From contig WTGN01000028.1 in assembly GCA_011523545.1 (NCBI GenBank), positions 46,201 to 110,200 of the forward strand: DNA of 64,000 nt, read 5' to 3'. This document shows positions 4,499 to 16,347 of this stretch, one piece after another. Under the pieces are notes generated by a model that saw only the letters and a program-made list of their open reading frames with translations, was not told the DNA's origin and made no database searches. The DNA comes from Chloroflexota bacterium. GTDB lineage: Bacteria; Chloroflexota; Anaerolineae; Aggregatilineales; Phototrophicaceae. Position 1 is the first letter of the stretch. Each line of letters starts with the position of its first letter. Position numbers and translations under genes: made by a program.

Positions 4499-6100
4499 CT
4501 ATCTGGAATAGGAAACTTCCAGAAACTGATTGACGGCGACTTCTCGCAGCGTCTCTTCGTCGCCATTGGGCCAGCGGATTAGCAGCTCGCGAATGCCGGC
4601 CTCGCCCAGCCCGAAATGCAGGGCGGTGTCGTTGCCGGCGCCCAGGCTGGAGCCGCTTTTGACTTCTTGCAGCAGCGTCCTCCCGTCGTCCGTCTTGATA
4701 TAGACGCGCGCGCCGATGGCGTCGCGGTTGATATCGCCGCCGCCGATGAGACGTATGTTGATCCAATTGTTGGCGCCGCCATCCGCGCCGGAGTTGCGGT
4801 AGAGAACGTAACCCTCGTTCCAGTTGCCCAATACGAAATCGAGAAAGCCGTCGCGATCGTAATCGGCGTAGGCCAAGCCCATGCTCGGCTTCAGATCCAC
4901 CAGCCAGTCCGAGGGCGTGACATCGGCGAAGCTGCCATCGCCGCGATTCTTGAAGAGAAAATCGCGGTATTCAAACATCATGCCTTCGGGACCGGATTCG
5001 ATATCGAATTGAATGAACTCGGTGGCGGTTAGTATCAGGTCGAGCCAACTGTCGTTGTTGTAATCGAAGAATATCGTGCCCCAACCGACGGCGCTGCTGG
5101 GACCGACCATGACGCCGGCCTCCTCCGCCACATCGTCAAAGCTGCCGTCGCCCTGGTTCTGCAGCAGCACCATGCCATTGACCATATCCGAGAAGTAAAA
5201 GTCCAGATCGAGGTCATTGTCGTAATCGCCGACCGCCAGGCCCATGCCGTGAATGAAGGTGCGCGCGCCCGCTTCAATCGAGACCTCGCGCCAGCACCAG
5301 CCGCCGCAGCCGGGCCCGTCGTTGCGCCAGAGGATGTTGCCCAGCATATTTTTGAACTGATCGTTGACGACATAGATATCTGGGTCGCCATCGTTGTCAT
5401 AATCGGTGAAGCTGGCGCTGAAGCCGGCGCCCAGCAGCAGGTCGTAATCCAGCAAATGGGTGACGTCTTTGAAGCTGCCGTCGCCGCGATTGCGATAGAG
5501 CGTATCGCGGGCTTCGTCGTGCTCGCGCGTGATGTTGGGGTCGCCGCATTCAGGGAAGCATGACCAGTTGACGACATAGAGATCCAGGAAGCTGTCGCCA
5601 TCGTAATCGCCCCAGGTCGCGGTGCTGCCCTTGCCTCCATCGCCCACCCCGGCGCGTTCGGTGACATCGGTGAAGCCGCGCCCGCTTTTGTTATGGAAGA
5701 GCGCATTGGCGCCATGGTTGAGCACATAGAGATCGAGCCAGCCGTCGTTGTCGTAATCGGCCCAGACCGCGCCCCCGGTCTCGACATCAGCAAGCGCAAC
5801 CTGGGGCGTCAATTCCGACACTGAAAAGCTGCCATCGCCATTGTTGCGATAGAGCACGCTAGGGTCGCGATTGCCGGTGACATAGAGATCAAGCCAGCCG
5901 TCACGGTCATAATCGCCCCAAGCTTGGCCGATGCCGAGGTAGCCGGTGATGAAGTCTTTGTCAAAGAGCTGCCAGTCGCCGCTATGCGTGGCGCGGATGC
6001 CGGCCGATTCGCTGACATCGATAAAGGGTTCGAGCTTGCCGATGGCTGTCAAACATATCACGGCGACTATGAGTATGGCGGCGCGGGCAGCGGACATCAT
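4499..6100 (-). CDS. Secreted FG-GAP/VCBS repeat protein with C-terminal ASPIC/UnbV domain (CRTAC1-like)
   Basis: Signal-like N-terminus; many DYDxDGxLDLYV repeats; C-terminal NNWINIRLIGGGDINRDAIGARVYI..HFGLGEAGIRELLIRWPNGDEE. Confidence 0.92.
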   Translation of the reverse strand: MMSAARAAILIVAVICLTAIGKLEPFIDVSESAGIRATHSGDWQLFDKDFITGYLGIGQAWGDYDRDGWLDLYVTGNRDPSVLYRNNGDGSFSVSELTPQVALADVETGGAVWADYDNDGWLDLYVLNHGANALFHNKSGRGFTDVTERAGVGDGGKGSTATWGDYDGDSFLDLYVVNWSCFPECGDPNITREHDEARDTLYRNRGDGSFKDVTHLLDYDLLLGAGFSASFTDYDNDGDPDIYVVNDQFKNMLGNILWRNDGPGCGGWCWREVSIEAGARTFIHGMGLAVGDYDNDLDLDFYFSDMVNGMVLLQNQGDGSFDDVAEEAGVMVGPSSAVGWGTIFFDYNNDSWLDLILTATEFIQFDIESGPEGMMFEYRDFLFKNRGDGSFADVTPSDWLVDLKPSMGLAYADYDRDGFLDFVLGNWNEGYVLYRNSGADGGANNWINIRLIGGGDINRDAIGARVYIKTDDGRTLLQEVKSGSSLGAGNDTALHFGLGEAGIRELLIRWPNGDEETLREVAVNQFLEVSYSR

Positions 6101-6147: not shown

Positions 6148-7035
6148 TTATCGCTTTACGCCAGAGGTGGCGATGCCTTCGACGAAATAGCGCTGGCCGA
6201 AGATGAAGATGATTAGCACGGGGATGACCGCGATCGTCGCCACCGCCATCATCAGATGCCATTCGGTGTTGCCATAGGCGCCTTGATATTGCACCAGGCA
6301 AACCGGCAGCGTCTGAATATCCGGTGTACGCAAGTACAGCAAGGGTCCGAAGAAATTATTCCAGTTGCCGATGAAGGCGAAGATTGCAAGCGTCGCCAGG
6401 GCCGGTTTGGAGAGCGGGATGAAGATTTGCAGCAGAATGCGCGCATGCCCGGCGCCATCGATCTTGGCGGCGTCCACCAGTTCTTCCGGGATCGTCAAGA
6501 AGAATTGCCGCAGCAGAAAGATGAAAAAAGGCCAGCCGAACCAGGGCGGCACCATCAACGGCAGATGGGTATCCAACCAACCAAACCGGTTGAACAGCAC
6601 ATACTGGGGCACGACCAGCGCTTCATTGGGCAGAAGCATGGTCGCCAGCACCAAGGCGAAGAAAAAATTCTTGCCGCGCGCTTTCAAGCGAGCAAAGGCA
6701 TAAGCGGCCAAGGTGCAAGAAACCATATTCCCGATGATGTTGTTGATCGTGATCTTCAGCGAATTCCAGGTGCAGGTAGTGAAATTGACATAACCGTGAC
6801 CGTACCAGCCGTCGGGGAAATTCTGCCATTGGACAGTCTCCGGGATTAGCGTCGGCGGAAAAGCGAAAACCTGCTTGAGCGGTTTGAGCGCGGTCGACAC
6901 CATGACGAAGAAGGGCAGCATAAAAGCGATGCCGAGCGGCACCAGCAAGGCGAAGGTAAGCAAAAAGCCGATGGTGCGGCGCCCCTGAGTCGATTTGTGC
7001 CAGGCGACGTCTTCTTTGCGTTTTCGCGTCGTCAT
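6148..7035 (-). CDS. Carbohydrate ABC transporter permease (MalG/UgpE-like)
   Basis: Six TM-like segments; EELVDAAKIDGAGHARILLQIFIPLSKPALAT EAA loop. Confidence 0.94.
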   Translation of the reverse strand: MTTRKRKEDVAWHKSTQGRRTIGFLLTFALLVPLGIAFMLPFFVMVSTALKPLKQVFAFPPTLIPETVQWQNFPDGWYGHGYVNFTTCTWNSLKITINNIIGNMVSCTLAAYAFARLKARGKNFFFALVLATMLLPNEALVVPQYVLFNRFGWLDTHLPLMVPPWFGWPFFIFLLRQFFLTIPEELVDAAKIDGAGHARILLQIFIPLSKPALATLAIFAFIGNWNNFFGPLLYLRTPDIQTLPVCLVQYQGAYGNTEWHLMMAVATIAVIPVLIIFIFGQRYFVEGIATSGVKR

Positions 7036-7946
7036 CCCGTTTCAGCCTCGTAGTAAACCCAGCGCCTGCCAACCCAGAACTGAGCGCCCGTCAGCAACAT
7101 GAGAACCACGAACATGATCCAGGCGACGGCGGCGGCGATGCCCAATTGCAGGAATATGAAGGCGTTCTCCCATAAGTACCAAATCAAAACATTGCTGGAT
7201 TCTCCCGGTCCGCCCTCGGTCATCACGCGTATCTCGGTGAAATTCTGGAATGAACTCACGACAGAAATAATGATCACGAAGAAAAGCACCGGCGACAGCA
7301 TAGGCAGCGTCACGTTTCGGAATTTCGCCCAATTGCCGGCGCCATCGATTTCCGCTGATTCGTATAATTCTTTTGGCACGCCCTGCAAGCCCGCCAGCAA
7401 AATAATCATGATAGGACCGACAGAGAACATGCTCATCAAGATGAGCGACGGCTTAACCCAGGTCTTGCTGAATATCCAAGGCGGACCTTGGATGCCGATC
7501 TGCTTCAAGGTGTGATTGAGGATGCCAAGGCGCGGGTTGAAAATCCAGATCCACACCAGCGCCACCGCCACGCCCGCGGTCACCGTCGGCAGATAATAGA
7601 CGGCGCGGAAGAAGGCGATGCCCGGCACTTTCTGATTGAGCAAGACCGCCAGCAGCAAGGCGAATGACACGCCAAATACGACTCTGCCGACGACAATGTA
7701 AAGGGTATTACCAACCGACGTCCAAAAGATCGGATCGTCAAAGAGCTTGACATAATTGTCCAGCCCGATGAATTGCAGATCATCAAGCGAGATGCGCCAA
7801 TCGGTGAAGCTTAATCCCAGCATGCCGAAGACCGGACCGGCGCTAAAGACGACCAAGCCAATCAGCCAAGGCAGAATGAACAAATAAAAGATGCGCTCTT
7901 CGCGCTTGGCGGCCGCTGAAATGGGACGCGATTTTCGTCGAATCAT
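7032..7946 (-). CDS. Carbohydrate ABC transporter permease (MalF/UgpA-like)
   Basis: KELYESAEIDGAGNWAKFRNVTLPMLSP EAA loop; 4-nt overlap with the downstream permease. Confidence 0.94.
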   Translation of the reverse strand: MIRRKSRPISAAAKREERIFYLFILPWLIGLVVFSAGPVFGMLGLSFTDWRISLDDLQFIGLDNYVKLFDDPIFWTSVGNTLYIVVGRVVFGVSFALLLAVLLNQKVPGIAFFRAVYYLPTVTAGVAVALVWIWIFNPRLGILNHTLKQIGIQGPPWIFSKTWVKPSLILMSMFSVGPIMIILLAGLQGVPKELYESAEIDGAGNWAKFRNVTLPMLSPVLFFVIIISVVSSFQNFTEIRVMTEGGPGESSNVLIWYLWENAFIFLQLGIAAAVAWIMFVVLMLLTGAQFWVGRRWVYYEAETG

Positions 7947-8031
7947 TACTAGTGCGCTCGTCTTTATGCCAACGGAGTTGAGGGAGACCGCCGGGCGATC
8001 TCCCTCAAGCAGTGCAATCTAGGATACCGAA

Positions 8032-9345
8032 CTACATACCGGCGACTTCGTCGAGCGCAGCCTGGCCTTCTTCCTGAATTGTGGCGATGGCTTCGTCGAC
8101 CGAAGTCTCGCCCAGGCGCAGCAGATCGGCCTCGCGGCTCAGTATCTGGCTGACCTGCGCGGCCGCCAGCGACTGGAAGGGCGGGCCCGTCACTGCGTAA
8201 TCGAACATCGCTTCCAGGAAGTAGTGACCGCTGGGCGGCGCCGGGTCGGATGTCAGCCAAGCTTCCAAGCCCTCCGGACGCGCCGGTGAACCGCGGCCCG
8301 ACAGGCTCCACATGAAGATCATTCCCTCGAGTGAGAGGTATTCACGCAGGTATGTCCAGGCGGTATCCGGCTTGTCGCTGGTCGGCGTGATGCCGTAGCC
8401 ACTGCCAAAGGCGCCCGTATAGCGCGAGCCGTCGGCGCCCATCGGCGTCGGCGCGACATCCCATTCGAAATTCGCCAGCGCGCGCATGCTCGGCGTGCTC
8501 CAGGTGGCGATATGACCCATGGCGGCGACGCCGGCGCGGAAGGGCTGCGAGTTGGGGAAGGCTTCCATCTCAGTGCCGCTGGCGCCGGCATTTTCGACGT
8601 GCTGCAGGTTGTACCAGTGGTTGAGCGCGGCGCGGACTTCGGGCGTGTCCATGGTCATCTCAGATTCGTCTTCGTTCATGTGGACGCCGCCCCAGGCGCC
8701 GGTGAAGAAGCCGCCACCGCCGTTGCCCAGATCCAGCCGGCCATCCCAGCCCCAGACGCCCATGTCGGCGTCGGTCAATTCAATAGCGGCGGCCGCCATG
8801 TCCTCCATCGTCCAGTCTTCGCTCGGATAGTCCATGCCAGCGGCGTCAAACATGTCTTTGTTGTATCCAAGGATGATCGGACCATGGTCATAGGGGAGCG
8901 CGTGGATGCGGCCATTGACGCGGTAGAGGCGCACCGATTCTTCCCACATGCCGTCAACATTAAATTCTTCATCAGCAGTGACGATGTCATGGATGTCGAT
9001 GATGATGCCTTCATGGGCCCAGGGCGTGGCGCGGCTGCCGTGTACGTAGATGATGTCGGGCAAGGTGCCGGCGGCGGCCCAGGCGGGCACGACGTTGTTG
9101 TGGTCGGCCCAGGTATTGTATGTGATGCTGACCTTGATATCCGGATGCCGCTCCATGAAGCCTTCATCGTATTCGGCCTGGCGCGGGCGGAATGCCGCTT
9201 CCCAGTGGCGGCCGAAGGTCAGCTCGACCTGGTCTTGGGCGGCGGCGATGCTGCTCAAGGGGCCCAGGCCCGCGAGCGCGGCGCCGGTGCTGGTGGCGGC
9301 GGTCAGCTTTAGGAAATCACGCCGTGAGAGTTTTTCATTCTTCAT
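8032..9345 (-). CDS. Extracellular sugar-binding protein of an ABC transporter (family 1, TAT-exported)
   Basis: N-terminal SRRDFLKLTAATSTGAALAGLG twin-arginine signal; family 1 SBP-like body; upstream of two permeases. Confidence 0.92.
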   Translation of the reverse strand: MKNEKLSRRDFLKLTAATSTGAALAGLGPLSSIAAAQDQVELTFGRHWEAAFRPRQAEYDEGFMERHPDIKVSITYNTWADHNNVVPAWAAAGTLPDIIYVHGSRATPWAHEGIIIDIHDIVTADEEFNVDGMWEESVRLYRVNGRIHALPYDHGPIILGYNKDMFDAAGMDYPSEDWTMEDMAAAAIELTDADMGVWGWDGRLDLGNGGGGFFTGAWGGVHMNEDESEMTMDTPEVRAALNHWYNLQHVENAGASGTEMEAFPNSQPFRAGVAAMGHIATWSTPSMRALANFEWDVAPTPMGADGSRYTGAFGSGYGITPTSDKPDTAWTYLREYLSLEGMIFMWSLSGRGSPARPEGLEAWLTSDPAPPSGHYFLEAMFDYAVTGPPFQSLAAAQVSQILSREADLLRLGETSVDEAIATIQEEGQAALDEVAGM

Positions 9346-9519
9346 GATCGTTCCTTTCTACAGCCAATTTTCGGACGAGAATACTGCTGCACACAGTTTC
9401 TTGCTGGGAGCACCTCCTTCAACATGCGCCTCGCGGAAACAAACAGGGACACAATAAAATCATAGGCGATTGCGAAGTCCGTTGCTATGGTAGACGAGGA
9501 TTGGCGATTTGTCAAAGAC

Positions 9520-9555
9520 TATGTCTAAATTGGCGCATATGTCTAAATTGGCGCA
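9520..9555 (+). repeat. Perfect 18-bp direct tandem repeat x2
   Basis: tatgtctaaattggcgca repeated exactly, in the intergenic region upstream of the chaperonin paralogue. Confidence 0.9.
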
Positions 9556-9734
9556 ATCGGTTGCGCGCGGCGCCTGGATTGTGGATAACCTGCCTTGCTC
9601 GCGCGAGCGGAGCCGTTTATTATCTTCGGAGCGCGTCAAGCAGCGTCGCCGTTACGCTTGGATACTGGCGAGCTTGGCGCTGTTTTACGCCAATGGATAT
9701 GTTTTCCGTTACGGTCTAGTTTTGTAGCGATTTC

Positions 9735-11342
9735 ATGCCACAACCCAAAGTCATTCATCAACCGCGGACTCAACGCGCGCTACAGCAGGGGATTGCCACG
9801 CTGGTCAGCGCCATCGCGCCAACGCTTGGACCCAGCGCCCGCCGTTCTGTCGCCCAGAATCAGGCCAAGTTGGAGCTTTTGGATGATGGCGGCTTGATCG
9901 CACGGCGCATCATCGCGCTGCCGGAGCCGGAAGCCGATGTGGGGGCGATGCTGCTGCGCCAGGTGCTATGGGATGTGTATCAGCATGTGGGTGATGGCGC
10001 CGCCACCACCGCCGTCCTTTATGAGCGCATTTATCGCGAGGGCCTTCGTTTCTTGGCGGCCGGCGCCGACCCGATGCGGCTGCGCGCCAGGCTGATGTCG
10101 CTTCTGCCCGCCATGACCGAGCGTCTGCTGGCAGACGCGCGCCCGCTGCGTGGCGAAGCGGAACTGAAGCGGCTGGCGCTCTCGGTCTGTTATGACGAGG
10201 AAATGGCGGATGTCATAGGCGAAGTCATCGACACGATCGGGCAATACGGGCAGGTCGATGTCCGCGCCGGGCATGGCCGCGGCCTGGAATACAACTTTGT
10301 GGACGGCAGCTATTGGAAAGGCGGCGCCCAATCCAAAGAGATGCTGCGCGGGTTCGCTCGTCAAGTGGTTGAGATGCAGGACGCTGCCATCCTCGTCACC
10401 GATATGGACATTGAGGAACCGCGCGATCTCGTGCCGGCGATGAGCCTGGCGCTGCGCTTGGGCATCACGCAATTGCTGTTGATCGTCGCTTCTATTTCTG
10501 AAACCGGCCTTTCGGTCGTACTTGATGATCGTCTGAAGAATAAGATCAGGACGGTTGTTGTCAAGATTGACGCCTACCATCCGGGCGACCTGAGCATCGC
10601 GCAGGAGGACATTGCGCTATTGACCGGCGCCCGACCGCTGCTGCAAAAGGCGGGCGAAACGCTGGAGCATGTGCGGCAGAGCGACTTCGGCGACGCGCGT
10701 TGGGTCTGGGCGGACGACAAGAATTTCGGCTTCGCCAGCGGCAAAGGCGATCCACAACAGCTGCGCGAGACGGTGCGCGGCCTGCGGGCGGCCTACGCTG
10801 CGAGCGAGGATGATGACGCGCGGAAGCGCCTGCTCGAACGGCTGGGCCGCCTCAATGGCGGGCTGGCGACGGTCTACGTGGGCGGCATCGCCGAAGATGT
10901 AATCAGAGGGCGCAAGGAAGTGGCCGAGCGAAGCATTCGCGCCTTGAGGAACGCGGCGGCTTATGGCGTGATTCCCGGTGGTGGCGCCGCGCTGCTGCGC
11001 TGCCGCGATTGGCTGCTGAATGAAGCCGATGCGCAGAACGAGCTTGAAAGCCGCGCCGCCCGTTTGATCATGGCCGAAGCGGCCGAAGCGCCGATGCGCC
11101 AGTTGCTTTCAAACGCCGGTTATGAGCCGAGCGAAGTTTTGGCGCGCTTGCAGCACTGCGGGGATGAAGCGGGCTTTGACGTGACACGAGGCGTCATCGT
11201 CGATCTGGCGGCGGCCGGCATTTTGGATGTGGCGCAGGTGCAGGTCGAGGCTTTGCAACGCGCCGTTTCCAGCGCCGCCCTCGCCTTGACGATTGACGTG
11301 CTGGTGCTGCATCGCGAGCCGGAGACGATGACGGATCCTTAA
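9735..11342 (+). CDS. Divergent GroEL/Cpn60-type chaperonin paralogue
   Basis: TLGPSARRSV, LDDGGLIARRI, GDGAATTAVL, YGVIPGGGAALLR, GILDVAQV align to GroEL; no GGM tail; changes at the ATPase and apical sites. Confidence 0.85.
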   Translation: MPQPKVIHQPRTQRALQQGIATLVSAIAPTLGPSARRSVAQNQAKLELLDDGGLIARRIIALPEPEADVGAMLLRQVLWDVYQHVGDGAATTAVLYERIYREGLRFLAAGADPMRLRARLMSLLPAMTERLLADARPLRGEAELKRLALSVCYDEEMADVIGEVIDTIGQYGQVDVRAGHGRGLEYNFVDGSYWKGGAQSKEMLRGFARQVVEMQDAAILVTDMDIEEPRDLVPAMSLALRLGITQLLLIVASISETGLSVVLDDRLKNKIRTVVVKIDAYHPGDLSIAQEDIALLTGARPLLQKAGETLEHVRQSDFGDARWVWADDKNFGFASGKGDPQQLRETVRGLRAAYAASEDDDARKRLLERLGRLNGGLATVYVGGIAEDVIRGRKEVAERSIRALRNAAAYGVIPGGGAALLRCRDWLLNEADAQNELESRAARLIMAEAAEAPMRQLLSNAGYEPSEVLARLQHCGDEAGFDVTRGVIVDLAAAGILDVAQVQVEALQRAVSSAALALTIDVLVLHREPETMTDP

Positions 11343-11343
11343 T

Positions 11344-12207
11344 ATGATGTCAATCGAAACGCTTGAGCGAACCAACGGCCTGCTGGCAACCGACGATTTA
11401 ATCTACGCAGCGCGTCAAAGCGGGCTGCATCGCTTGACCGCGGACGGGGACAATTCGCGCAGCCTCTTCGAAAGCTGGCTGCCTGGGCAGGATGTGCCGA
11501 CCCTGGCAATCGCCGCCTATGGCGAGCTGCTGCTGGCCGGCATCAAGGGCGGGGTCGCCCGCTCAGCAGACGGCGGCGCCAGCTGGGAGGCGCAGCAGTT
11601 TCGGGCGCCGGCCCCGCTTGTGACCTGCCTGGCGCTTTCGACCAATTTCGATGACGACGGCGTCGTGCTGGCTGGCACATTTGAAGACGGCGTGTTTCGT
11701 TCCACCGACGGCGGCATATCCTGGCGGGCGGTCAATCACGCCTTGTTCGATCACAGCATCTACGCGCTGGCGCTCTCGCCGGGGTTCGCCCATGACGGCA
11801 TTGTCTACGCCGGCACAGGCAGCGGCGTCTACCGCAGCGAAAATGGCGGCCGTCTGTGGTGGGATTTGACCATGCCGGCCGGCGATGAAACGGTGCTCAG
11901 CCTGGCGCTGTCCGGGAACGGGGCGATTTACGCCGGCTGTGAGGCGCACGGCCTGCTGCGCTCTAACGATGCTGGCCTAAGCTGGGCGACGCTGTTGGAA
12001 ACCGAGGGCGCGGTCAATGCGGTGGCGCTCATGCCAGACGGCGCGATCGTCGCTCAGGTGGACGACGGAGTTCTGCTGTCGCGAGATGACGGCGCGAATT
12101 GGAATCAATTAGCGGCGGAGAACGTGGACTGCATAACGCTGGACAAAAGCAGCGAGACGCTCATTCTTGCGATGGCCGATGGCAGCATTCGGCGAGTTGC
12201 GCTTTAA
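11344..12207 (+). CDS. BNR/Asp-box repeat beta-propeller protein (WD40/YVTN/BNR-like)
   Basis: Repeated Asp-boxes: SADGGASWE, STDGGISWR, SENGGRLWW, SNDAGLSWA, SRDDGANWN; starts 1 nt after the chaperonin stop. Confidence 0.85.
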   Translation: MMSIETLERTNGLLATDDLIYAARQSGLHRLTADGDNSRSLFESWLPGQDVPTLAIAAYGELLLAGIKGGVARSADGGASWEAQQFRAPAPLVTCLALSTNFDDDGVVLAGTFEDGVFRSTDGGISWRAVNHALFDHSIYALALSPGFAHDGIVYAGTGSGVYRSENGGRLWWDLTMPAGDETVLSLALSGNGAIYAGCEAHGLLRSNDAGLSWATLLETEGAVNAVALMPDGAIVAQVDDGVLLSRDDGANWNQLAAENVDCITLDKSSETLILAMADGSIRRVAL

Positions 12208-12365: not shown

Positions 12366-13757
12366 ATGACATTTGAACCAACACTCGAATCAGTAGGCAC
12401 ACACCAAGTCCCGGATTGGTATCACAACGCCAAGCTCGGCATCTTCATCCACTGGGGCTTGTATTCGGTGCCGGCTTGGGCGCCGGCGGGCGGAGACATC
12501 GGCGAAGTCTTCGAAAGCGGCGATATGAGCGACTGGTTTCGCGTTAATTCTTATGCCGAATGGTATCTGAATACGCTCAAGTTTGAAGATGGACCCACGC
12601 GCGCCTGGCACAACAAGCGTTACGGCGCTGACTTCCATTATGACGACTTCAAAGCCGGCTTCAACTCGGGGCTGAGACGATGGAACCCAGCCGACATGGC
12701 TTCCCTTTTCCGCGAGGTCAACGCGCGCTACGTCGTATTGACGAGCAAACACCATGACGGTTTCACCCTCTGGCCCAGCGATATCCCCTGCCCGCACAAG
12801 GAGAACTATCACACGATGCGCGATGTGGTCGGCGAGCTGACCGACGCCGTCCGCGCCGAGGGCTTGCGCATGGCGATCTATTATTCCGGCGGGCTGGACT
12901 GGGCGTTCAACGAGGCGCGCATCGAACAAGTCCAGGATGTCTGGGGCACAATCGTGCAGACGCCTGAATTCGTCGACTACTCGGTCGCGCACTGGAAAGA
13001 GCTGATCGACAAGTACAAGCCCTCGATCATGTGGAATGATATCGGCTACCCGGCGGCGGCCGACCTGGGCGAGCTATTCGCCTACTATTACAACAACGTG
13101 CCCGATGGCGTCATCAATGACCGCTTCACCCAAGCGCGCGATCAGCGGCCGACGCCGGGCGAAAAGCTGACGTCGCCGCGCGGACCCCATTACGACTACA
13201 TCACACCGGAATACGCCACCTTCGACGAGATTCAGGATGTTAAGTGGGAATGCTGCCGGGGCATCGGCCACAGCTTCGGTTACAACCGCGCCGAGGGCGA
13301 TGCCGAGTTGCTGGCGGAGGACGAGATGATCCACATGTTCGTCGACATCGTCAGCAAGAACGGCAATCTGCTGCTGAATGTCGGCCCGATGGCTGATGGC
13401 GCGATCCCCGACAATCAAGCCGACCGTCTGCGATCATTGGGCCGCTGGCTGGACCGCAACGGCGAGGCCATCTTCGATACCCGGCCCTGGCGGCGCGCCG
13501 AGGGAAAGACATCCCAGGGGCTTGGCCTACGCTTCACCGCGACCGAAGACGCCTTGTACGCCACCCTGTTCGGCTCGCCTGCCGAGAGCGAAATCCGCAT
13601 AGAGCAACTGGAAGCGCCAGCCGGAGCGAGCCTTCAGTTGCTGGGGCGCGACAGCGACCTGGCTTGGGAGCAGGACGGTGCCGACTTGAAGATTCAATTG
13701 CCGGAGCTGCCCGACGCGCCGGCGCATTCTATCGCGATTCGTGGCATAGGTGGCTGA
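12366..13757 (+). CDS. GH29 alpha-L-fucosidase (copy 2)
   Basis: LGIFIHWGLYSVPAW, LTSKHHDGFTLWPS, IMWNDIGYPA, VKWECCRGIGHSFGYN. Confidence 0.94.
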   Translation: MTFEPTLESVGTHQVPDWYHNAKLGIFIHWGLYSVPAWAPAGGDIGEVFESGDMSDWFRVNSYAEWYLNTLKFEDGPTRAWHNKRYGADFHYDDFKAGFNSGLRRWNPADMASLFREVNARYVVLTSKHHDGFTLWPSDIPCPHKENYHTMRDVVGELTDAVRAEGLRMAIYYSGGLDWAFNEARIEQVQDVWGTIVQTPEFVDYSVAHWKELIDKYKPSIMWNDIGYPAAADLGELFAYYYNNVPDGVINDRFTQARDQRPTPGEKLTSPRGPHYDYITPEYATFDEIQDVKWECCRGIGHSFGYNRAEGDAELLAEDEMIHMFVDIVSKNGNLLLNVGPMADGAIPDNQADRLRSLGRWLDRNGEAIFDTRPWRRAEGKTSQGLGLRFTATEDALYATLFGSPAESEIRIEQLEAPAGASLQLLGRDSDLAWEQDGADLKIQLPELPDAPAHSIAIRGIGG

Positions 13758-15042
13758 GTTGAGCGCGAAAGTCAACGCCTTCGTCGAGAAGAACCTGCGC
13801 TGGAACTTCTCGGTCAATCTGATCGACATCACCTTCATCACGCTCGCCTTCAGCTTGATCTCGCGCGAGACGATCACGCCGCTGCTCATCAGCAACCTGA
13901 CGGATTCGAAGATCGCCATCGGCCTGGTGCCGGCGATCTACAGCATCGCCTATTACCTGCCGCAGCTTTTCGCCGCCAACCATGCCGAGCGCTTAAAGCA
14001 CAAGCTGCCCTTTGTCATGGTTATCGGCGGCTTGCTGGAGCGCGTGCCCTATCTCTTCGCCGGGCTGGCGATTTTGCTGCTGGCGGAGGGCGCGCCGATC
14101 GCGGCTCTTCTCTGCCTCTACCTGGTGATCGGCCTGGGCGCGCTCGGCAATGGCGTGGCGACGCCGGCCTGGTTCAGCATGATTGGCAAGGTCCTGCCGG
14201 TCACGCGGCGCGGGATATTCTTCGGCCTCAGCGAAGGCCTGGGCACGCTGATGGGCATCATCGGCGCGTTTTTTGTCGGTCTCGTGCTTGATTCCGTCGG
14301 CTACCCGCTGAATTTCGCGACCTTGTTTCTCATCGCCGCCGTTTTCATGGGCATCTCCTGGGTCGGCCTGGCGCTGAACCGCGAGCCGGAAAGCCCTGTC
14401 GTCAAAGCCCATATTCCCTTCAGCCACTATTTCCGCCGCTTGCCGGCGATATTGCGCACGAATCAGAACTTCAGGCGATTTCTGCTGAGTTATTCCATCA
14501 GCCGCTTGAGCACGATGGGCGTCGGCTTTTTCATCGTCTTCGGCGATGAGCGCTTCCAATTGACCGGCGCCGAAGTCGGCCTGCTGACCGCTATATTGAT
14601 CGGAAGCCAGGCGGCCATGCAGCTGCTGCTTGGCTGGCTGGCCGATAAACGCGGGCACAAAGCCAACCTGACGATTTCCGGCCTCGCGCTGGCGTTGGCG
14701 GCGCTGCTGGCGCTGACGGCAAACGATATCGCCGGGCTGGCGCTGGCCTTCATTCTGTTGGGCGTCGGGCTGGGAAGCGACCATGTATCGCGCCTGAATA
14801 TCATCCTGGAATTCGCCGTGCCGGAAGATCAGCCGACCTTCATTGGGCTGACCAATACCTTGCTGGCGCCGGTGGTCTTTCTGGCGCCGATTTTTGGCGG
14901 CTGGCTGGCGGATTTCGGTTTCGACGCGCTCTTCGTCTTGATGACGATCTGCGGCGCGCTAGGTGGATTGCTGCTGCTGATCTGGGTGCAAGAGCCGCGC
15001 CATTTGCCGCCGGCGCCAATCGACAGCAAGCCCAAGCGCTAA
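13750..15042 (+). CDS. MFS transporter (tandem copy A)
   Basis: About 12 TM-like segments; GTG start overlaps the fucosidase stop by 8 nt; GWLADKRGHK loop. Confidence 0.88.
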   Translation: MAELSAKVNAFVEKNLRWNFSVNLIDITFITLAFSLISRETITPLLISNLTDSKIAIGLVPAIYSIAYYLPQLFAANHAERLKHKLPFVMVIGGLLERVPYLFAGLAILLLAEGAPIAALLCLYLVIGLGALGNGVATPAWFSMIGKVLPVTRRGIFFGLSEGLGTLMGIIGAFFVGLVLDSVGYPLNFATLFLIAAVFMGISWVGLALNREPESPVVKAHIPFSHYFRRLPAILRTNQNFRRFLLSYSISRLSTMGVGFFIVFGDERFQLTGAEVGLLTAILIGSQAAMQLLLGWLADKRGHKANLTISGLALALAALLALTANDIAGLALAFILLGVGLGSDHVSRLNIILEFAVPEDQPTFIGLTNTLLAPVVFLAPIFGGWLADFGFDALFVLMTICGALGGLLLLIWVQEPRHLPPAPIDSKPKR

Positions 15043-15069
15043 ACCAACGCGGCGCGAACGGATACCGCT

Positions 15070-16347
15070 GTGACAAAATCGACGGCAAGCCCGGTCGAAG
15101 AAAACGTCAATTGGAATTTCAGCGTCAATGTGCTGGACAATATGTTCTATGCCTTGGCGATCAGCCTGGTTTCACAAGAGACTATAATGCCGCTGCTGGT
15201 CAGCAAATTGACCGATTCAACGATCGCCGTCGGTCTGATCCCCGCTATCTTCAGCTTGTGCTTCCTGCTGCCGCAGCTCTTCGTCGCCAATCATGCCGAG
15301 CGCCTGCCGCGCAAGCTGCCTTTCGTCCTGCTTGGCAGCGGCCTGCTGCAGCGCCTGCCCTACCCATTGATCGGCCTGGCGCTTCTGCTCTTCGCCCTTG
15401 ATGCGCCTGGCCTGGCGCTGATGCTCTTCTTCGTCGGCATCGCCACGGCCGCATTCGGCGGCGGCATCGTGACGCCGGCCTGGTTCAGCATGATCGGCAA
15501 AGTGATACCGACGCGGCGGCGCGGCATCTTCTTCGGCCTGGCCGATGGCGGCGGCTTGCTTTTGGGCGTCGTCGGCGCCTACTTCGTCGGGCGCGTGCTG
15601 GATGCCGTCGACTATCCGGGCGGGTTCGCCCTGCTCTTTTTGGTCTGCGGCTTCATTCACGCCATGTCCTGGTTCTCTCTGTCCTTGACGCGCGAGCCAC
15701 CCAGCGGGGTCACCAAAGAGGCGGCGCCGCTGCGCCAATATTTCCGTCAGCTGCCAGCTATTCTGCGCGGCCACGCCAATTATCGGCGCTTCCTCGTCGG
15801 CTATGCCCTGCTGCGCTTGAGCATGATGGCGGTTAGCTTTTTCATCGTATTCGCCAATATCAGCTATGAATTAAGCGGGGCTGACATCGGCCTGCTCAAC
15901 GCGATCTTCATTGGCACGCAGGCGGTCATGCGGCTGCTCTTCGGCTGGCTGGGCGACCGCTGGGGGCACAAGCGCAACCTGGTCATCTCGGCCGGGGCGA
16001 TGGCATTGGCGGCTTTGTTCGCGCTGTCATCGGTCAGTCTCGCCGGGCTGATACCGGCCTTCATCTGCCTCGCCTGCGCCATTTCCGCCGATATGGTTTC
16101 ACACTTCAACATCGTGCTTGAATTCGCCGACCCCGCCGAGCAGCCGACCTATATCGGGCTGACAAACACCTTGATGGCGCCATTTACGTTCGCTGGTCCC
16201 ATTCTTGCCGGCTGGATCGCTTCCGCCTTCACGATGCATCTGCTCTTTGCGCTTGCCCTTGCGTTTGGCGTTGGCGGCGGCGCGCTGCTATGGCGTTGGG
16301 TGCAAGAGCCACGCCGCAAATTCGAATCTGCCGGGGCGTCTCGGTGA
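15070..16347 (+). CDS. MFS transporter (tandem copy B)
   Basis: Clear paralogue of the preceding MFS (NWNFSVNVLDNMFYALAISLVSQETIMPLL vs RWNFSVNLIDITFITLAFSLISRETITPLL); GTG start; C-terminus runs into a palindromic repeat. Confidence 0.88.
   Translation: MTKSTASPVEENVNWNFSVNVLDNMFYALAISLVSQETIMPLLVSKLTDSTIAVGLIPAIFSLCFLLPQLFVANHAERLPRKLPFVLLGSGLLQRLPYPLIGLALLLFALDAPGLALMLFFVGIATAAFGGGIVTPAWFSMIGKVIPTRRRGIFFGLADGGGLLLGVVGAYFVGRVLDAVDYPGGFALLFLVCGFIHAMSWFSLSLTREPPSGVTKEAAPLRQYFRQLPAILRGHANYRRFLVGYALLRLSMMAVSFFIVFANISYELSGADIGLLNAIFIGTQAVMRLLFGWLGDRWGHKRNLVISAGAMALAALFALSSVSLAGLIPAFICLACAISADMVSHFNIVLEFADPAEQPTYIGLTNTLMAPFTFAGPILAGWIASAFTMHLLFALALAFGVGGGALLWRWVQEPRRKFESAGASR

Follow-up and report, generated by a model that had tools for sequence, protein, structure and literature searches.

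The gene pair and its surroundings

The window, a stretch of 64,000 nucleotides from a Chloroflexota bacterium with a draft genome of 4.54 Mb (G000:C48), contains two adjacent genes that encode a divergent group I chaperonin and an Asp-box propeller (Table 1). Both open reading frames are on the forward strand, and a single nucleotide separates the chaperonin stop codon (TAA, 11340-11342) from the propeller start codon (ATG, 11344), as an earlier sequence-only reading of this DNA had noticed. That reading had also called the chaperonin divergent and had credited the propeller with five Asp-box-like motifs and no obvious signal peptide. These descriptions hold: the chaperonin scores 279.9 bits against the GroEL housekeeping equivalog TIGR02348, for which the cut-off is 582.1, a regular expression returns five Asp-boxes in the propeller, and the propeller N-terminus is not signal-like (hydrophobicity 0.26).

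Table 1. Features of the chaperonin-propeller locus in window coordinates
Feature	Position	Strand	Remarks
MalG-like ABC permease	6148..7035	-	PF00528 70.1 bits
MalF-like ABC permease	7032..7946	-	PF00528 60 bits
CUT1 solute-binding protein, motif SRRDFL near start	8032..9345	-	PF01547 86.7 bits; divergent from chaperonin
Divergent intergenic region, binding protein/chaperonin	9346..9734		No CIRCE-like site
Divergent group I chaperonin (Cpn60)	9735..11342	+	535 aa, no GGM tail; PF00118 119.7 bits
Codon of D87, GDG nucleotide-binding motif	9993..9995	+	Invariant in family
Codon of R399, at E. coli GroEL catalytic Asp398 position	10929..10931	+	Alignments with the genome's canonical GroEL and PDB GroEL
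Seven-bladed Asp-box (BNR) propeller	11344..12207	+	287 aa; PF02012 35.8 bits; predicted cytosolic

The pair is flanked by genes for an FG-GAP/ASPIC-UnbV protein, an alpha-L-fucosidase (GH29) and MFS transporters (4499-6100 and 12366-16347), which recur in the genus and make up a saccharide-use locus. Between the chaperonin and the divergently transcribed gene of a solute-binding protein (SBP) is a perfect 18-nt direct tandem repeat (TATGTCTAAATTGGCGCA, two copies, 9520-9555), the core pattern of which was not found in ten relatives. A CIRCE-like site is likewise absent near those divergent chaperonin genes of the main clade (68 members, see below) that were inspected, while the canonical groES of the same genome has a palindromic one upstream. 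Heat-shock control of the divergent chaperonins was accordingly rejected, as they lack a CIRCE-like site, unlike the canonical groESL.

The chaperonin: family, conserved residues and predicted fold

The window chaperonin belongs to the Cpn60_TCP1 superfamily (PF00118, cut-off 34.3 bits), its first PDB matches are GroEL/Hsp60, and divergent chaperonins share 27-30% identity with canonical GroEL. The genome encodes five chaperonins, one canonical and four divergent. Because a better-scoring chaperonin is also present in 14 of the 15 other genomes searched (the exception is the draft G244), the divergent proteins are paralogues and not the housekeeping GroEL. No groES was found in the window neighbourhood or at the divergent main-clade loci inspected. 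In genus g69, three divergent chaperonins (L189, L190 and L192) are encoded directly downstream of a groES-like gene; L189 keeps D398, Y203 and F204 and could be an intermediate form.

Asp398, the catalytic residue of GroEL, is lost in all 68 main-clade members, where it is replaced by arginine (54), glutamate (10), histidine (2), alanine (1) or glutamine (1), and D52 is lost in 31 of them. The aromatic residues that contact GroES or substrate have also changed: Y199 is lost in all 68, Y203 is mostly glutamate or alanine, and F204 survives in a single member, with methionine in 56. In the window protein the changes at GroES contacts are Y199A, Y203E, F204M and V264D, and the C-terminus reads HREPETMTDP, without GGM repeats. 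The nucleotide pocket is preserved, with D87 kept in 68/68 main-clade and 17/17 distant members and D495 in 68/68 main-clade members; the hinge glycines are kept too. These alignments show a main clade in which the catalytic aspartate is gone, most aromatic GroES/substrate contacts are gone and nucleotide binding residues remain. GroEL with the D398A mutation binds ATP normally, has 3% of the ATPase activity, and retains encapsulation and folding (PMC3326522).

Three early-branching members (L182, L186 and L193) retain D398 and most of the aromatic contacts. As these branches are already paired with a propeller, the pairing seems to predate the loss of catalysis, on a tree with moderate deep support and a single canonical sequence as its root. 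Three other residues, R322, P340 and R344, are constant where the chaperonin is paired with a propeller and differ in each of the two clades that lack one; they may form a propeller contact site, a post hoc suggestion that draws on two clades only.

The AF2 monomer of the window chaperonin (pLDDT 89) superposes on GroES-bound GroEL with a TM of 0.88, versus about 0.61 for the open form. This hints weakly at a closed state, the comparison having no canonical GroEL control. One clade (L061, L072, L077, L078 and relatives, among them the chaperonin on contig C32 of the window's own genome) stands out by its size (568-610 aa), by an extension at the N-terminus and by an insertion in the apical domain. 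Here the transporter is always adjacent, the propeller is absent, and the chaperonin is followed by a gene for a membrane-like protein (about 311 aa) that matches no Pfam family.

The propeller

The window propeller is assigned to the BNR family (PF02012, cut-off 27 bits). AF2, run on an alignment of 40 sequences, models it at pLDDT 94; its strands, by our count, form seven blades, and among solved structures the sensor, GH74 and Ycf48 propellers come closest in fold. A signal-peptide-like N-terminus was found in none of 54 paired propellers, by a 15-residue Kyte-Doolittle mean that reaches 1.40 at best. Four early-branching chaperonins (L182, L186, L193 and L195) are paired with Asp-box proteins of double length (637-672 aa; 661-672 aa in the first three), in which 10-11 Asp-boxes may make up two propellers.

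Several more specific identities were rejected. The propeller is below the cut-offs for Ycf48/HCF136 (PSII_BNR, 24.9 bits against 27; PRK13684, 28.9 against 326), and a glycosidase role is disfavoured by both its score against the F510_1955 family glycosylhydrolase model (NF045728, 93.5 against 175) and its lack of an export signal. Spread on plasmids is not indicated, as all plasmid matches are below 60% identity; those listed are at about 30% and are annotated as sialidase-family or hypothetical proteins. An anti-phage defence system was also discounted, PADLOC-DB having no family that matches either the chaperonin or the propeller.

Recurrence of the pair

A second, paralogous pair is found on contig C9 of the same genome, so two of its four divergent chaperonins are directly followed by a propeller. 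Since the genome contains only a handful of related BNR genes, and since the arrangement recurs across the Chloroflexota, the pairing is far beyond chance. Of the 33 genomes of the same genus, 32 contain the orthologous pair (chaperonin identity 63-90%; the exception is G033), which also occurs in other families at about 44% chaperonin identity. A scan of 85,488 species genomes yielded 159 confirmed chaperonin relatives, and the best 80 of these are, all but two, Chloroflexota records (Anaerolineae, Ardenticatenia, Caldilineaceae, Herpetosiphonaceae and Leptolinea). One record labelled 'Bacteroidetes bacterium' (L143) has a chaperonin whose nearest neighbour in the tree is that of the Chloroflexota locus L140, and the label is probably wrong. 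In an even draw of 301 genomes from the phylum, 21 have a family member at E<=1e-75, other classes included.

We built a tree of 86 non-redundant chaperonins, with 81 rows scorable for the propeller and 75 for the transporter. A propeller is adjacent in 56 of the 81, with 12 changes of state on the tree, and paired chaperonins include members of just 32-36% identity. The genes of the pair are compact and mostly co-directional: the propeller is 3' of the chaperonin in all 54 measured pairs and on the same strand in 53, 11 pairs have a 4-nt gene overlap, and one pair (L067/L130) is convergent. About a third of the relatives have no adjacent propeller; some clades keep the transporter and lack the propeller, and at several paired loci no transporter gene is close by. 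A mirror-tree comparison that leaves out the window's own group gives r=0.86 between the distances of the two proteins. A claim that the chaperonin co-evolves more tightly with the propeller than with the permease (0.86 vs 0.51) compared different locus sets and was dropped, as identical sets of 14 loci gave r of 0.79 and 0.78.

The chaperonin and the propeller thus recur side by side and are inherited together; their association is ancient, and we have little doubt that they make up a real functional unit. The sequence-only reading had named chaperonin homologues without a recurring propeller neighbour as the result that would tell against its proposal of an undescribed two-gene system; we looked for that outcome, and the 56 of 81 non-redundant relatives that adjoin a propeller speak for a conserved module instead, on which we found no paper. 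The roles it suggested for the propeller, as dedicated client, cap or co-factor of the chaperonin, are candidates that are weighed below. The two-gene frame was nevertheless too narrow, as the chaperonin is the common element, joined to a propeller, a CUT1 transporter or both.

A few loci depart from the standard gene structure. At L066/L135 the chaperonin frame is 769 aa long and the propeller is split over two frames, and at L160 the chaperonin is split into two open reading frames; frameshift, decay or assembly error could account for either case. At L196 (9244-10416), a glycoside hydrolase family 10 protein takes the propeller's place after the SBP-MalF-MalG-chaperonin genes.

A CUT1 transporter and Tat-type binding proteins

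The transporter genes in the window encode one SBP_bac_1 and two BPD_transp_1 proteins, the complement of a CUT1 system, and are transcribed away from the chaperonin (6148-9345). The binding protein carries a putative twin-arginine signal (TAT_signal PF10518, E=9.4e-5, 22.6 bits, just below the 22.7 cut-off), and we predict that it is exported by the Tat pathway.

Across the tree, a transporter gene is found within 1.2 kb of the chaperonin in 44 of the 75 scorable rows. Outside the window's group a very common order is SBP-MalF-MalG-chaperonin-propeller, on one strand and with overlapping genes, and the gene most often immediately upstream of the chaperonin is that of MalG. The window's genome has at least 150 permease genes (about 4% of all genes if the total is about 4,000). 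Despite this general abundance, all four of its divergent chaperonins are beside a CUT1 operon, which is directly upstream (C86 and C32), one gene away (C9) or divergent (the window). In the main clade just two loci, L132 and L170, clearly have neither a propeller nor a transporter, which identifies the chaperonin as the hub and the other two as its associates. No ATPase gene was seen between transporter and chaperonin, so the chaperonin could be imagined as a stand-in transporter ATPase; CUT1 operons often lack their own ATPase, and the hydrolysis residue of the chaperonin is lost, for which reasons we rejected this idea.

A twin-arginine motif is present in 36 of 39 chaperonin-linked binding proteins. 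The three without it have, respectively, a mis-called start, the variant SRHEFL and a sequence that stops short of the N-terminus. Among unlinked binding proteins of the same genome, about 12 of 69 inspected were judged by reading to be Tat-type, as was one of the 18 top-scoring unlinked proteins in G039, G244 and G012. G343 and G301, two distant genomes, have Tat-type signals in at least half of the binding proteins inspected, so the signal is common there regardless of linkage. In a binding protein tree the linked proteins occupy about 11 separate places, several of them next to Sec-type relatives. The raw counts in this set (linked 31/32, unlinked 22/99) are not independent, and a phylogenetically controlled test, always in the expected direction, had 2-4 informative pairs and was not significant (p 0.125 at best). 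On counts the Tat link has good support; with phylogeny taken into account it is not yet proven.

A proposed dedicated folding module and its alternatives

We propose that these loci encode a dedicated chaperonin module, in which a hydrolysis-deficient chaperonin and its propeller partner serve Tat-exported sugar-binding proteins; the proposal is partly inferred, and we give it a probability of roughly 35%. The chaperonin, known to us as a monomer model, would form a GroEL-like ring that binds ATP, hydrolyzes it slowly or not at all, and acts without GroES. The cytosolic seven-bladed propeller would be its stable partner, as an adaptor or a substitute cap. In the cytoplasm such a module would fold, hold or proof-read certain clients, the likeliest being the sugar-binding proteins encoded next to it, which, if exported by Tat, would of necessity be folded before export. 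Tat substrates are described in one source (PMC3305326) as leaving the cell already folded; a folding factor of their own in the cytosol would then make sense. More specifically, the chaperonins may constitute a class that has abandoned ATP-driven cycling and GroES, uses the propeller as substitute cap or adaptor, and is encoded in the operon as a station where Tat-exported sugar-binding proteins are folded and proof-read; this fuller version we offer as speculation that is rather doubtful.

According to the main rival, the propeller is the obligate client that the chaperonin evolved to fold, and once folded it does its work in another place, where it might scaffold or regulate sugar uptake. 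A 287-aa propeller of roughly 31 kDa would fit a GroEL-size cavity, and the one-to-one pairing is tight, with translational coupling. There is also a parallel in CCT, which, with PhLP1, has been proposed as a common folding route for seven-bladed WD40 propellers (PMC8544692). However, entire chaperonin clades are propeller-less yet transporter-linked, and the propellers of the earliest pairs, at 637-672 aa, are large for a GroEL cage; both observations argue against a client role as the whole story. The association with the transporter and with Tat signals would moreover be left unexplained, and, to our knowledge, Asp-box propellers in other systems need no chaperonin of their own to fold. We therefore consider this explanation unlikely.

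Alternatively, the pair could act as Ycf48/HCF136 does in photosystem II assembly, and assemble or scaffold a membrane complex, be it the transporter permeases or a different one, the Tat signal being incidental. The propeller fold is similar to that of Ycf48 (TM about 0.7), there is a weak sequence similarity as well (28.9 bits), and the frequent position of the MalG gene directly upstream of the chaperonin suits such a role. Yet the propeller falls under every Ycf48 cut-off, Ycf48 acts on the opposite side of the membrane, and the strong Tat bias of the linked binding proteins would have to be a coincidence, which makes an assembly factor improbable. Least probable in our estimation is an operon merely conserved by descent in the Chloroflexota, its members having unrelated jobs in saccharide use and the propeller being, for example, carbohydrate-active or carbohydrate-binding: nearly all loci are in one phylum, glycoside hydrolase genes are often close by and the mirror-tree signal is partly shared descent (0.79 vs 0.78), but the pair survives very long branches, also without a transporter and once in convergent orientation, the linked transporters come from about 11 separate binding protein lineages, and the propeller, which has no export signal, falls well short of the glycosylhydrolase equivalog cut-off.

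Relation to known systems and implications

Duplicated or atypical group I paralogues of GroEL/Cpn60 have been reviewed (PMC5904260). The window chaperonin is like GroEL in its full-length Cpn60 fold, the D87 and D495 nucleotide pocket, the hinge glycines and its similarity to the GroES-bound form. It differs in the loss of D398, the altered GroES/substrate contacts, the missing GGM tail and the lack of a neighbouring groES, and the divergent chaperonins as a group differ in their linkage to a propeller and a Tat-type transporter. The propeller, in turn, shares the Asp-box fold with Ycf48/HCF136, GH74 and Vps10/sortilin; unlike them, it is predicted to be cytosolic, scores below family cut-offs and is paired with a chaperonin.

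Two systems offer analogies of function. In CCT/TRiC (PMC8544692, PMC6599039) a chaperonin likewise has seven-bladed propeller partners, but that chaperonin is of group II and its clients are WD40 proteins, whereas here a group I chaperonin and an Asp-box protein are connected by genetic linkage only. REMPs (PMC3316669) are dedicated cytosolic chaperones of particular Tat substrates; they have an unrelated fold and serve cofactor enzymes, whereas the link described here is to sugar-binding proteins and is genomic only. In the openly licensed literature we found no account of chaperonins in connection with propellers, Asp-boxes, operons for transporters or Chloroflexi paralogues, and Chloroflexota, ABC transporters and propellers all go unmentioned in a review devoted to atypical type I chaperonins. 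The components are thus of known kinds; their combination, its breadth and the loss of catalysis appear to be new.

Bacterial chaperonin duplicates are usually regarded as general or stress-specific GroELs. The family described here, a chaperonin subfamily found across a phylum, is linked to a single partner gene and to one kind of exported protein, and its main clade has lost the catalytic residue behind the GroEL cycle. If the proposed role is correct, it would be a client-dedicated bacterial chaperonin, a bacterial counterpart of the relationship between CCT and propellers, and a means of coupling folding in the cytosol to export by Tat.
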